From assembly GCF_963675165.1 (NCBI RefSeq), contig NC_087387.1, forward strand, positions 4,924,990 to 4,988,989: DNA of 64,000 nt. The letters run 5' to 3'. Shown in pieces: positions 794 to 64,000 of the stretch. Made by a program: the position numbers and the translations under genes. This DNA comes from Halichondria panicea (taxonomy: Eukaryota > Porifera > Demospongiae > Suberitida > Halichondriidae). A model generated the notes under the pieces. It made no database searches. It was not told where the DNA came from and saw only the letters and a program-made list of their open reading frames with translations. Numbering within the stretch: the stretch's first letter is position 1; every line of letters starts with the position of its first letter.

Positions 794-1490
794 TTATGAC
801 TCAGTGTCAGCAGTCACACTAGTGTATGCCTCATTCTCTGTGGTGGGTATATTCGACCACCTTACTTCAGTGTAGGCTTCATTTCTTATCATTGCCACTT
901 CTGCTGTCCCACTCAACCTGTTAGCGTCAGTTGCCATGACACTATTATTAGTGGTGGTAACATCGCCATAGGCCGGGTTAAGTATCGTGGGTGGATCATG
1001 TGATACAGATGAAGGATTGGCAACCATTTGTAGTTTCTTGGTTGTGCCGTATGCTTTGTTTGTTTTCATGGTTACTTCATTTATCCCTCCCATTCCCTCG
1101 TTTACGTAGTAGTAATCATCTGTTGTGATAACATCCCCATTGGCATTACTCTCAGTTAGGTTGCTGTTTGAGTCAGTTGATTCCTCGATGGTAGTATAGA
1201 GGGGCTCTTGAGTTGAAGGGACCTCTGTGCTAGAGCTAATTATCGGGGCATCATTGATGTCTTCATAATACTCACTATTGGTAGCTTGGTAAGTAGCCAC
1301 GTCTGAAATAATGAAAATACGAACTTTTAATTGGCAGTCTTCATTTATCTTTATTTACCTGACTGCTGCTGCTTCTTAGCTCTTTGCTTGTGTATAATAT
1401 ACAGCAATAGAATTATTATAACCGTTGCAGCAATCATTACTAAACCAACTGGTATTGCTATTCCCACATATAGTCCAACATTGTCAGCTG
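794..1490 (-). other. TM exon and cytoplasmic-tail exon of gene A
   Basis: The TM exon (1490-1359, 132 bases) encodes about 23 hydrophobic residues rich in Ile, Val and Leu, followed by a basic stop-transfer run (HKQRAKKQQQ). It is phase 1 at both ends, so skipping it would keep frame. The tail exon (1302-794) encodes 169 residues with many tyrosines: EPLYTTI, an exact NPxY in LNPAYGDV, NKAYGTT, NEAYTEV and NEAYTSV. The last two give YTEV and YTSV separated by 12 residues, the ITAM spacing but with Val instead of Leu/Ile. This suggests docking of SH2 and PTB proteins. The tail protein is identical to that of gene B. Confidence 0.85.
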
Positions 1491-4400
1491 CTGTAGTAGA
1501 AATAATGGTATGACAAAGTAATGAGACATACATCAGTAGGTTTAGTAACGTAATAATTGCTGGCAAGAAGCACTCATCAATATCTGTGTGTGTGTGTGTG
1601 TGTGTGTGTGTGTGTGTGTGTGTGTGTGTGTATGTGTGTGTGTGTGTGTGTGTGTGTGTGTGTGTGTGTGTGTGTGTGTGTGTGTGTGTGTGTGTGTGTG
1701 TGTGTGTGTGTGTGTGTGTGTGTGTGTGTGTGTGTGTGTGTGTGTGTGTGTGTGGGTGTGTGTGTGTGTGTGTGTGTGTGTGTGTGTGTGTGTGTGTTTG
1801 CAACCTAAAGCCTTGTAAGTATCTTCTGAGATCGCATTGAGCTCTGGTAAGCTTAAAATAGCCACTCATTACTAGAGTAAGTCGCCGAACTTATAACAAC
1901 AGTATATAGCGCCTAAAGTTATAAGCGCTATATATTAGCGCTTATAGCTAGAATATTGCTGACTCAGCACTTTACAAGCTTCACAAAGAAACAAGTGTAG
2001 CTCCGCTTTGCAGGGTCGCCTGATTCTGGGAATTGCTCCACTCTGTACTGCACTCTATCTAGATTGTACTCAGCTTGTGTCAGTTAGCTCTAGCTGTGTA
2101 GTTTGGCAAAACGGCGATCGGTACGTTTTGACGAAAATCGAAAAATTCGATAGTTTTTTCAAGTTATCACTGCTCGGACTGGAAGCGACTTGGCCTATCC
2201 AAGTTTTCGCTGGATAATAGGCCCATGGCCATCTGTTAGTGTGTGTAATTAATTTGAATCAGTCTTGTTTTGTTTGTGCGTTACACGCCGATGCACTTTG
2301 ATGTCTGACAGAGTTTGGCGACTTACTCTAAACAGGCTTGAATACAGAAGCTGAACAGGCCTAGTGCAGTGCGTGCAGTACTAGTGCTAGTGCATGAGCA
2401 AGGCTCAGCCTGAGCCCTAGCCCTCTCCCAGAGTGTCTCTAAAGCAGCTCCTTCTGCAAGCACACAGCAGAATTTTTGATGAACTATAGTCTACCGACCA
2501 GTGGCGTAGCCAGAGGGGTGCAGAGGGTGCTCCAGCACCCCCCTCTGGCCTCAGACTCTGCTCCACAAGTTCCTTAGCTAAGCTACATGTAGCCATATAT
2601 AGATACACAAAAGAAAGGGATAGGTAACACCCAGCACTTCCGTTGGATGAGGCGAGTTGCTAAAAAGGGGCGTGTAATGAGCAAAAAGGGGTGTGTGCAC
2701 TCAAAATGTCAGTAAAGATATTAATACCTTATAGCAGGTATATTTCGAGGGTATAAAAATGTTCGCGGTTTTCAATGATTGAGCCTCTACCGCGAAAATT
2801 TATACCCACGAACATTTATATCTTTATTGAATAGTAGGCGTGTTCAGTATTATTGACCACACCTATCGACAATAAGAGGTGCCTCACCGTTATAGGCTAG
2901 GCCTGGATTCGAGGCTAACGGTGTGGAGGTACAGCTGCATGTTGATGTGCGCATGCGCCAAAAGGCTGGAACTCATACCACTAAAATAAAATCCGCGAAA
3001 TCCTTTGTAATGGTCCATCCACGAAAATTTATACCCTCGAAATATACCCGCTATACGGTAGTTTGTAGTATTATAGCAAACTGTGCTCTTGAGGAGACAC
3101 CAGATACACTTAGACATAGGCTATTAATCTTTTAGAGCTACTATATGCAAAGTGATGAGAAAGTGAGCTCCAAAGGGGGTGTCAGTACACTCTACAAACC
3201 ATAACAGGTCTGTTCCCAAGTCCTTCAAATGCCATCTCTTCGATCACACAATACAGAGAAAGATACTTGTGTTCCACTTTCTAATACCTAAACTGTGTCT
3301 TAGAGCACTTCAAACTAGATTACCATGTACAGTAAGAGCAGGAGAGGTACACAAACTTTCTGGACTTCAGACAAACGTTTCATGGTGCTGCTACTATTTC
3401 ACTGCATTGAGAGCTAGAAAATATGCTTTGTTCCATGCAGTTATAAACACACTTTAATTCTGTGAAACGTACATGTTATAAAATTATTTCATATTGGAGA
3501 TATAGGTACATAAACTGACAAATTGGTGTTGAATAAAAGAAAGCTCGGCACTAACATAGCAACTGTAGCTATCAGTATAGTGCTGGGTGTATGTGTGCAT
3601 GATGCCTGATTGCTTTAAATTTCTCTTTTAGGCCCCCTACGAGAAAAATAAGCAGATATAGGGATCATTGTGTACTTTCTTGAGCGCAACTCGCCTCCAA
3701 CCAGAGGGTGTGACGTCACACTGCATTTACCTAGCATCACGTGGGGCGTTGCCTATCCCTTTCTTTCGTGTATCTATGATGTAGCTAGCTAGCTGATATG
3801 AGAAAACTAGAGCTAGAGCTCTTGTTGCGATCAACTCAAAACTCCACCTCCAACTAGCTAGCTCCACCTCCAAATTTCATTCCAGCCAGTGCACATGCGC
3901 AAAGCCACGTGGGCTGAGCAGACCAAGGTCCCCCACAGAGTTGCAGACTATTCAGCAGCTATCACCATCATCATCATCATGTCACTCTTTCAGTTGAGCC
4001 CAGTTCACAGAGCAGCACTGCAAAACTGCAAGTGGCTTGCCACCCTGTCCTGCTAATTCACAAGCAGAACCTGGTTAGCAGCTGCATGATTTAATTGTCA
4101 CAACTCAAAACAATGCATTTTATAGGACATATTCAGATAAAGATGTGGCTTAACCACCAGTACCCTCAAAGCAGCTCATTTCTTAGCCAGATTGTGTTAG
4201 AATCAATCTCAGAGCATGTAACAACAAAAATTTTCTGGGGTAGTGCCCCCAGACCCCCCTTGTTGGGGCACATTTTGCACCACCGGAGCGCACTGGTAAT
4301 TCAGACAATCCATTCATCCAGCACCCCCCTCTCTCAAATCCTGGCTACGCCCCTGCCGACTACACCGTCTGTCCCTCTATTTTCATTTATGTTTCTCATG

Positions 4401-61819: not shown

Positions 61820-64000
61820 ATGAATACTGGAATGATAGTCAATCTGCTGCTAGCATTGCTAGCAGGAGCAAATGGTCAAGGTGAGCATACATAATATAGT
61901 GTGATGAAGCACGCATCATATTTATTTATGTCCTATAATTATTATAGCAAACGCTTATTATAGCGTACACATTATCAATTCAGTCTTAGAAAGATTAGAA
62001 GCGATGTTATCGAGGTATGCCACGGTACTGGTTTTATGCAGTTACTTCAAGGAGAGAGATAGGAGGATAAACAATGTTCAAGTTACTACCATGCAGCTCA
62101 TTGATCCTTACCATGTTTCTGTCCTATGCTTTCCCGTGTTTATATGCTTTCTCTTGCTTGCCTATCAGCATAAGGGTGTAACTGACTGTAACACCGGGAA
62201 AGCAGAAAGCATAAAACAGAGAAGCATAGATAGTATAAAAACACAGAAGAGTTAGTATAGGGAAACAAAGTATATCTAGTATATCTATATAATATTTTTT
62301 TATTATATAGGAAGTATTCAGTATAGCCATGTAGGTAATACTCATGCAGTGTTAATAAATTAAAACCAGCTCCACCCACCTTTGTTTCTGTAATACAAGT
62401 CATGCAGACCTGAGTACCAGTCCACTATAGGCATATACAGCATACCAGTTAATTGATACTCACAGTAAAGGGTATATTGCCATGTTCCAAGATTTTTGTA
62501 TAAATCTGCCCAGTGCACTTAATTGGAACAAATAATTCAATTGCTTAATAAGTATAATTATACCTAAACTGTACAATAGATGAAATCACCAGTCAACGTG
62601 TTGTTTTATGTGACCTTTACACAGTTATTGGGACTCCGTTTTAATGATTAGTCCAAACTAAAATCTCATGCCATGGCTTCTGTGTATGTACAGGTATGAC
62701 CACCAAACAAGGTTATCATACTGGGCACAATAAATTCCTAACATTGAAGTTATTGCAACTCAAGTCTATAATTATCATCCCTAATGCACATGCAGGCATT
62801 GCAGCCTCTTTCGTTTTCACCAATGGTCAGACGGTACAGGAATCTGCTGGAGTTTTCCAAGCATGTGTTGCATTGAACGAAGCACTCAGCACAGGCAGCA
62901 TCACCATCACCGTTGCTACACAAGCTGCAGTCAACACTGAGCGAGGTCAGAGTACATATCAAGTATTTAGTTTAAAAAGCCATTTTATAGGCTATAATAT
63001 TATAATTATTCTTTAGATATATATACCAGTTGAAATATTCATTATAGCAATGTCATAAGAATACTACTTTCTATATTTACACAGGGATTAATTTTGGGAA
63101 TCCAACACCGCAGGCCCTGACCTTTACACCGACTGCTTCTCAGCTGTGCTTCAGCATTCCCATTATCAGGGACAACATTGTGCAACTCGGAGTACAACTG
63201 TTTGCACTATCGCTATCTTCCACTGATATAAATGTGCAACTATCAATGCAACAATTTGTCACCATTGAGGAGAGTGATGGTGAGACTAGTAGTTATTATG
63301 CACTTATAAAGTTAATTGTTTGGCATGTACATTGATTATTGAGCTGGAAGTGTTATAAAAAAGAATCAGATCATCTTAATCGACTAAAGCAATCCCATCT
63401 CTCCCCTCCTCTTTTACTCAGTTCTCGTAGTCGCTCTGTCCAGTTTATCTTATACCGTCCAGGAGGGTATGCCAATACAGATATGTGCTGATGTAGTGAA
63501 TGGGATTCTAGCCTCAGGCAGTTCACTCACAGCCACCGTTACCAGCCAAACAGGCACTGCTAGTGGTAAGACTATAGCGTGACAATGAACTGCATGGAAT
63601 ACAATAAAATTTTCCTAAAATACAATATACATGTACACATTATTACAAGCTGTAAATTAAAGAATATTTAGGCCAAATACTATGTTTTGTAGGCTGCATC
63701 AGTATAGCACTAACATTGGTTACAGAGGAAATCCATTATAAAATGGACATTGAGGAACAAAGTTTTAATTGCCCATTGTATACAGAGGTGGCATTATTTT
63801 GTTGAGGGGTTGTTTGTACAGAACATGTTCATTGAGCATTGGGTGCGGCATTTATATCACAGTATGTACGTTAGCCTTTTTTCAGAGAAATAGCCATTGA
63901 AACGAGTTCCACTGCATTATTGTAGTATACAAATTTAATGCTCGTCAATTGAATCTTTATTCCAGCTGGATCTGACTTTGTGGCAATAGTGTCTCAACTC
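61820..64000 (+). CDS. Gene F (partial): signal peptide and Calx-beta domains
   Basis: The gene runs past the window end. Exons: signal 61820-61880 (MNTGMIVNLLLALLAGANGQ); Calx-beta halves 62796-62945, 63085-63279, 63422-63565; start of the next half 63966-64000. All are phase 1. The first Calx-beta has the usual Cys-containing strand (FQACVALNEA) and a second half ending VTIEESD. It follows the relic at 60259 and is on the same strand as gene E, so E, the relic and F look like a tandem series. Its downstream domains are unknown. Confidence 0.8.

Follow-up and report, generated by a model that had tools for sequence, protein, structure and literature searches.

We propose that the analyzed stretch of the Halichondria panicea genome (64,000 nt, referred to as the window) belongs to a fast-recombining cluster of genes for modular cell-surface recognition proteins, with one cassette of transmembrane (TM) segment and tail, tail1, captured from a gene family on another chromosome, C17, a reading that we hold to be probable. 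The receptor-like anatomy of the encoded proteins is well supported, and the tails may signal. In line with an earlier note on this sequence, we observe mosaic surface proteins (with TM, of GPI type, or secreted) that have been duplicated and recombined, with tyrosine-bearing tails that differ or are shared, as in immune-type receptor loci; the sharing of tails turned out to be even stronger than first stated, since the tail1 cassette is found also on the unrelated C17 family. As the cluster genes visibly swap their outer parts while keeping the tail, and a second, unlinked family on the other chromosome bears the same tail, the region is a good candidate for studies of the recognition of self, other or microbes. 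It offers two specific loci and, in the tail, one biochemical entry point for the study of sponge self/non-self recognition, the molecular basis of which is described as an open question in the accessible text of PMC12065747 and PMC5450542.

Extent of the cluster and domain content

The window covers the middle part of a larger cluster of approximately 158 kb (~C11:4853513–5011480), which continues on both sides and comprises 14 gene models and relics. All six neighboring genes of the earlier note are real as models, but its listing was incomplete. Gene models were built in this analysis segment by segment, replacing whole-region gene finding, which fused or split genes; some exons of models C, J, K, and L are still doubtful, and it is uncertain where D and H end. 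A search of the genome for COX1 yielded one match of 64 residues, which contains two TGA codons.

Gene A (17661–29540, plus strand; model and Pfam) encodes a signal peptide (SP), three Calx-beta domains, the third being shortened and fused to a sushi exon, a long sushi array, five EGF domains, a membrane-proximal domain, for which a search for relatives yielded none convincing, TM, and tail2. Gene B (34945–43884, minus strand; model, Pfam, and tail matches) has SP, three Calx-beta and eight sushi domains, TM, and tail1. Gene C (794–16149, minus strand; model, exon-wise Pfam, and self-matches), with SP, 13 sushi domains, TM, and tail1, has the same layout as other models and some doubtful exons; that it is one gene we infer, because a gap of ~5.7 kb separates its sushi exons. 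Gene D (~46750–52589, minus strand; model and Pfam) has SP, three Calx-beta domains, a Thr/Pro-rich stretch, two sushi domains, and a basic C-terminus, with no TM in the model, whose end is uncertain. Gene E (53993–58030, plus strand; model and Pfam) has SP, two Calx-beta and five sushi domains, TM, and its own tail, of which no second intact copy was found. Gene F (61820–64000 in the window, continuing beyond it, plus strand; model and Pfam) starts with SP and Calx-beta exons, followed past the window end by three sushi domains and a hydrophobic C-terminus (66473–66558), which is probably of the GPI type. Thus, TM and a tyrosine-bearing tail are indeed present in four of the six genes (A, B, C, E), with identical tails in B and C and differing ones in the others.

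The Calx-beta and/or sushi arrays ascribed to the six genes were confirmed. Pfam found both Sushi and Calx-beta in 5/5 models that were scanned in full (A, B, D, E, F), with E-values of 4.4e-78 to 8.3e-17 and 4.5e-32 to 9.1e-13, respectively. When exons of gene C were scanned singly, Sushi was found in 6/6, and local profiles yielded no Calx-beta match in this gene. Throughout the window, local profiles identify sushi in 43 rows, of which 39 are full or nearly so and four partial; the second half of Calx-beta accounts for a further 13, of which 11 are full, one is partial, and one runs across the window end. Relics are present as claimed: a damaged, frameshifted sushi exon of gene A (19950–20115), a Calx/sushi fusion exon (19512–19736), and a copy of the E tail broken by internal stops (~60257–60385, plus strand), identified by the tail search and a repeat match.

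The cassette structure of the genes also holds: internal exons are of phase 1–1 in 23/25 cases in A, 15/15 in B, and 9/9 in each of D, E, and F, a count that is not fully independent, since domain matches served as anchors for the gene finder; splice sites of sushi exons, read directly, yield phase 1 at exon borders. On the contrary, the single common signal-peptide exon of the earlier note did not stand, as each of the six genes has its own SP exon, with common position and phase (all six end in phase 1) but not sequence. None of the 15 SP exon pairs among A–F passed the level of 5/500 shuffles, the lowest values being 14/500 (A/F) and 18/500 (A/C); inside sub-families, seven pairs (A/I, A/J, I/J, B/G, B/K, G/K, E/M) yielded 0/500 each.

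Recombination between neighbors and the shared tail

Sequence comparisons show the cluster to be a patchwork produced by recombination. In gene C, the 5' part of one neighbor, N, is combined with the 3' part of another, B, the joint lying within an intron, where the best match in self-comparison switches at 11655–11822 from B (below) to N (above). The identity of C and N in 250-bp windows is 97.2–100% in 18 windows and then 86.2–90.8% in the last three, and the 3' ends of B and C are 98.4–100% identical in 20/20 windows. Shifts of the best match are observed along C, M, and L (seven of the 15 gene stretches were used as queries). Clustered paralogs with signs of recombination, a feature of allorecognition loci, are hence present here. 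Gene structure together with the identity steps between neighbors shows frame-safe recombination in introns, by which SPs, Calx-beta sets, sushi/EGF arrays, and the TM–tail cassette, all encoded by phase-1 exons, would be recombined with the frame kept.

The tail1 cassette occupies 34945–35638 in B (minus strand; TM exon 35510–35638, tail exon 34945–35453, both entered in phase 1) and 794–1487 in C (minus strand; TM exon 1359–1487, tail exon 794–1302), and the two proteins are identical over the 169 residues searched. Five cluster genes (B, C, K, L, and M) carry this cassette, two of them, K and L, with an early end of tail1. Out of 25 tail1 match rows, these account for five on C11, and the remaining 20 are located at C17:4.525–4.643 Mb. 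In the C17 copies examined, tail1 is joined to an unrelated ectodomain, which has no Pfam match and no convincing relative, and which was not found in 264 kb of C11. Among the C17 models, x1 is complete with a weak second acceptor, the first exon of x2 is doubtful, y1 combines a damaged ectodomain exon with a tail acceptor that is weak, and y2 is cut before the tail.

In gene L, past the donor of the EGF exon, the intron runs on as a C17-like Thr/Pro stalk sequence, preserving an apparent junction of the capture of the signaling cassette; no C17-like stalk is seen in the corresponding introns of I and N. This remnant points to the direction of transfer, so that C17 is the probable source of tail1 in the cluster; as the tail tree is unrooted, the direction is derived mainly from the L junction. 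The remnant and the tree together suggest that the cassette was taken from the C17 family with its orphan ectodomain and then spread to five cluster genes. If so, a single type of signaling tail would serve two unrelated repertoires of ectodomains.

Tail motifs, selection, and possible roles

Seven patterns were counted in five tails. In tail1 of B, there are six YxxPhi motifs (1.58 expected, p = 0.0016) and five NxxY motifs (1.03 expected, p = 0.0010; 5000 shuffles in both cases), and tail2 of A has two hemITAM-like motifs (0.04 expected, p = 0.0076), all three p-values being uncorrected for the 35 tests. The core tyrosine motif YxxI/L/V or hemITAM is thus present in tail1 of B and tail2 of A. 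Canonical ITIMs are absent from these two tails and from C17 x1, and the single ones in tails E and M (0.15 and 0.90 expected, respectively) are within chance. Extra conservation of the tail1 tyrosines is not significant (7/11 invariant vs. 83/168 overall, Fisher p = 0.25).

Purifying selection dominates the evolution of the paralogs. In 28 pairs of eight tail copies, omega is 0.34–0.95. Exon-by-exon omega in 12 gene pairs yielded no bulk diversifying selection of ectodomains: out of 31 gene-pair-by-class totals, all 23 non-first-exon totals have omega of 0.08–0.77 (with one mismatched EGF pairing, dS 3.2, included in the I/L total), and among eight first-exon totals, omega exceeds 1 in two (G/K, 1.49; M/E, 1.60), and no differences occur in another one. 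As a separate observation, the second Calx domains of B and K have 13 non-synonymous and one synonymous differences (raw counts).

Several other explanations were considered. Blocks N, I, kelch/kinase, M and C, A, kelch/kinase, B have similar order approximately 77 kb apart, with stretches of 98–100% identity, as would be expected if mosaicism were partly an assembly effect, with two divergent haplotypes placed in series. This is improbable, as there are no N letters in 264 kb, identity within one block jumps between near 100% and 86–91%, and gene content differs from block to block; the latter two observations rule out haplotype duplication as the sole cause, and the presence of the same tail on C17 is independent of any haplotype misplacement. 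The Calx-beta/sushi/EGF arrays might also form matrix or cell–cell contacts, the tails being mere anchors, and such an adhesive role agrees with the lack of TM in D, the GPI type of F, and Calx-beta being a domain of sponge aggregation factors; still, a tail rich in tyrosine motifs and common to two unrelated ectodomain families suggests signaling over plain anchoring, making this role rather unlikely.

It is quite possible, if somewhat short of probable, that these are ordinary innate receptors of the pattern-recognition or scavenger type, directed at microbes and expanded in tandem, with no role in self/non-self recognition. In sponges, receptor families that contain sushi and Calx-beta domains are candidates for pattern recognition, and SRCR genes of Amphimedon are tandem-expanded, according to the accessible parts of PMC8242945 and PMC10855680, respectively; SRCR is large in the H. 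panicea genome too (at least 213 matches, with 150 of 1364 candidates scored), and purifying selection between paralogs fits this explanation as well. Nothing in our data counts against it, all its structural predictions being the same as those of the best explanation.

If the genes do form a recombining recognition cluster, as we prefer, their ectodomains may bind a matrix ligand or one carried by another cell or a microbe. In tail1 genes, binding could lead to phosphorylation of tyrosines in the YxxPhi/NxxY motifs, to which SH2 or PTB adaptors would be recruited, and the secreted (D) and GPI-type (F) members might, speculatively, serve as partners, decoys, or adhesion parts. A more specific proposal, which we put forward only tentatively and consider doubtful, is a putative two-locus system of self/non-self or microbe recognition, with tail1 as a plug-in signaling module of both the C11 mosaics and the C17 orphan family, and intronic recombination creating new specificities with the tail kept.

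Comparison with known recognition systems

A search of largely open-access literature recognized no comparable genes, and we do not claim their absence from print. Sponge aggregation factors (MAFp3 of Microciona/Clathria and AqAF of Amphimedon) have Calx-beta arrays, are encoded by clustered genes, and are tied to cell recognition; AqAF is reportedly the subject of Grice et al. 2017. VWA/VWD domains are common in this family, which also features the Wreath domain and a secreted proteoglycan core without TM. The suggested tie to aggregation factors is upheld by Calx-beta in 5/5 models scanned (with no match in C), but the link is loose, given low identity elsewhere and no VWA/VWD among the Pfam families of A, B, D, E, and F. 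The Calx-beta triplet of B has 40 matches in the genome, 18 of them with 79–98% identity and all in B, G, and K, while the other 22 have 26–45% identity and include two in genes I and J of the cluster (38%) and 16 on C2; the closest Calx-beta domains beyond B/G/K form an array at C2:269–278 kb (30–45% identity). Moreover, the cluster differs from aggregation factors in having arrays of sushi and EGF domains, tails with tyrosines, and ends of the TM or GPI type: A, B, C, and E have TM and a tail, F is of the GPI type, and only D has neither.

Sponge SRCR/sushi receptors include the putative aggregation receptor of Geodia. Like the proteins studied here, they carry sushi repeats on TM proteins and form large sponge families, as far as covered by the accessible text of PMC8242945 and PMC10855680, but no SRCR is seen among the Pfam families of A, B, D, E, and F. 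In the gene-rich fuhc locus of Botryllus, the fester co-receptors, FcoR, are, according to the accessible part of PMC12065747, type I TM proteins that combine a sushi domain with long tails bearing Y-x-x-I/L/V; the cluster resembles it in sushi-bearing TM proteins in a gene-rich locus and in tails with this core motif. Still, FcoR are described there as Ig-superfamily proteins with ITIM or hemITAM, while canonical ITIMs are missing from tail1 of B, and an Ig-type ectodomain, as in FcoR and Alr, is absent from the Pfam families of A, B, D, E, and F. Finally, the amphioxus receptor FrLRR is proposed, in the accessible part of PMC10199209, to have arisen by exon shuffling, possibly via illegitimate recombination, and would likewise be a recognition protein assembled from modules of unlinked genes; the part moved there was an LRR ectodomain, and FrLRR lacks a cytoplasmic tail, whereas here it would be a TM–tail cassette shared by many genes of two families.

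Organization of the cluster

Forty-three sushi rows (39 complete or almost complete) together with 13 rows for the second Calx-beta half-exon have been identified in the window (C11:4924990–4988989; genome of 131.46 Mb in 39 contigs) by local search with profiles seeded with window and C2 sequences and run on six-frame open frames of the window and, in all, 200 kb of flanking sequence. Most Calx-beta domains are split between two exons. The earlier note had described six neighbouring mosaic Calx-beta/sushi genes and had read the locus as allorecognition-like. Segment-wise, home-made models of A–F agree with the six genes: Pfam confirms domains in five window models and, for C, sushi matches in six exons. 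Phase-1 cassette exons, also proposed there, are seen on splice-site inspection as sushi exons with clear phase 1 acceptors and donors, and a transmembrane segment (TM) with a tail is indeed present in four genes (A, B, C, and E). The suggestion of one shared signal peptide (SP) exon is not confirmed: each of the six genes has an SP exon, but their sequences are not detectably related, with none of 15 pairs beyond 5 of 500 shuffles.

The cluster exceeds the window, comprising with flanks 14 models (approximately C11:4853513–5011480) in the order N, I, M, L, K, J, C, A, B, D, E, F, G, H, with a partial copy further left. Genes A, I, and J form a sub-family starting with three Calx-beta domains and a sushi array, A and I ending in EGFs and tail2; B, G, and K, another one with three Calx-beta domains and a sushi array. 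E and M have SP and the first Calx-beta domain in common, and the start of C resembles N, a sushi/EGF gene with a collagen-like stretch. The membrane-proximal domain of A (28299–28640, forward strand), also found in I, has distant relatives in N and a partial copy (32–34% identity), no Pfam match above the cut-off, and no solved relative.

A gene combining Kelch repeats with a protein kinase domain (30528–32815, reverse strand) separates A from B; a kinase copy is located approximately 77 kb to its left, and fragments of related kinases occur near –92 and –75 kb. Introns of B and C contain repeats with three near-identical 96-residue open frames (3167–3454, 9420–9707, and 37336–37623, forward strand), and the one tested has no Pfam match. 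A minisatellite of approximately 25 bp occurs in both orientations in the long intron of C (9857–10070 and 10598–10759).

Genome-wide, the Calx-beta search yielded 645 candidates (150 scored, at least 151 matches), sushi, 4112 (150 scored), and SRCR, 1364 (150 scored, at least 213 matches); such large families are compatible with sponge origin. Outside the C11 cluster, the Calx-beta domains most similar to those of gene B are encoded by nearly identical tandem exons at C2:269–278 kb, possibly an aggregation-factor-like gene.

One tail is combined with different outer parts by recombination

Self-comparison reveals repeats at 77–99% identity across all of the 264 kb. At their 3' ends, B and C show 98.4–100% identity in 20 of 20 windows, while their upstream parts differ, C being sushi-only and N-like and B beginning with Calx-beta. 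Best-match scans covered seven of 15 stretches (C, M, L, B, A, J, and K). Below 11.65 kb, the best match of C is B (98–100% in most windows; 86–94% at 6.2–7.0 kb, where the windows are repeats), and above it, N (84–99% at 11.6–13.3 kb, 99–100% further up). Direct comparison of C and N gives 97.2–100% in 18 windows from 12972 to approximately 17470, dropping to 86.2–90.8% in the last three, which correspond to the start of A. Similarly, the best match changes along M from E to L/I to tail1, and along L, from M to I/A to the tail1 genes. The frame is kept across the joins because the exons are of phase 1-1. The genes are modular, and through recombination the same tail has come to be attached to different outer parts. 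Tail2 consists of two exons, starting in phases 0 and 2, and has three copies only, all on C11 (four rows); no intact second copy of the E tail was found.

A tail cassette common to two gene families

The tail1 cassette is shared by the C11 cluster and a second gene family: of 25 genome rows, five are on C11 (C, B, M, L, and K) and 20 at C17:4.525–4.643 Mb, some of the latter being fragments of one copy. Two C17 stretches (17.5 kb in total, a minor part of that cluster) gave four models, one of them complete, with SP, an ectodomain of approximately 200 residues, a Thr/Pro-rich stalk, TM, and tail1. The first stretch, L031, the only one searched for sushi and Calx-beta, has no listed match to either; long open frames beside its tail1 copies (L031:1–2540, reverse strand) are presumably retroelement-like. 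The C17 ectodomain has no match in Pfam and NCBIfam, chance-level matches only in PDB, and 52 genome rows (51 on C17, one on C16), none being found in 264 kb of C11. Orphan ectodomain copies are observed at C17:4.51–4.65 and 5.22–5.60 Mb (75–84% identity in the best rows; stops in some copies), and not all of them are near a tail1 match.

On C17, stalk and TM lie within one open exon, and on C11 the acceptor of the TM exon falls inside the same stretch. Gene L carries C17-like stalk sequence directly after the EGF donor, unlike I and N in the equivalent introns. Given these features, the simplest reading would be capture of a C17 stalk–TM–tail piece into a cluster intron. In a tree of ten tails, the five C17 tails stand apart (support 99) and are then joined by M (100), versus B, C, K, and L; this fits a single transfer with later spread, the tree being unrooted and giving no direction.

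Tail motifs and comparison with known systems

Tail1 of B contains six YxxPhi (1.58 expected) and five NxxY motifs (1.03 expected), similar to the tail of M (seven and five) and that of the complete C17 model, x1 (six and five), while two sites of hemITAM-like type occur in tail2 (0.04 expected). Omega, a dN/dS-type measure between paralogues, is 0.34–0.95 for tails (28 pairs from eight of ten copies) and 0.08–0.77 for the ectodomain and other non-SP classes (23 totals). Conservation of tail tyrosines is not significantly higher than that of other tail residues. The cluster proteins may be displayed at the surface and bind ligand with their outer parts; tail tyrosines would then be phosphorylated and recruit adaptors. 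The nature of the ligand, and the reading of self/non-self or microbes, is a matter of speculation.

Aggregation factors have Calx-beta in common with the cluster; unlike them, four of the six window genes have TM and tail, and VWA and VWD are absent from the listed Pfam domains. Botryllus FcoRs, according to PMC12065747, contain sushi domains and Y-x-x-I/L/V tails and act in allorecognition, but are of the Ig type. By these comparisons, the cluster resembles an immune-type receptor locus in appearance and may function like one, a likeness that does not make it a member of a named system. Sushi and Calx-beta are among the domains named for receptor candidates of Halichondria panicea in PMC8242945, and the ingredients are therefore already known in sponges.
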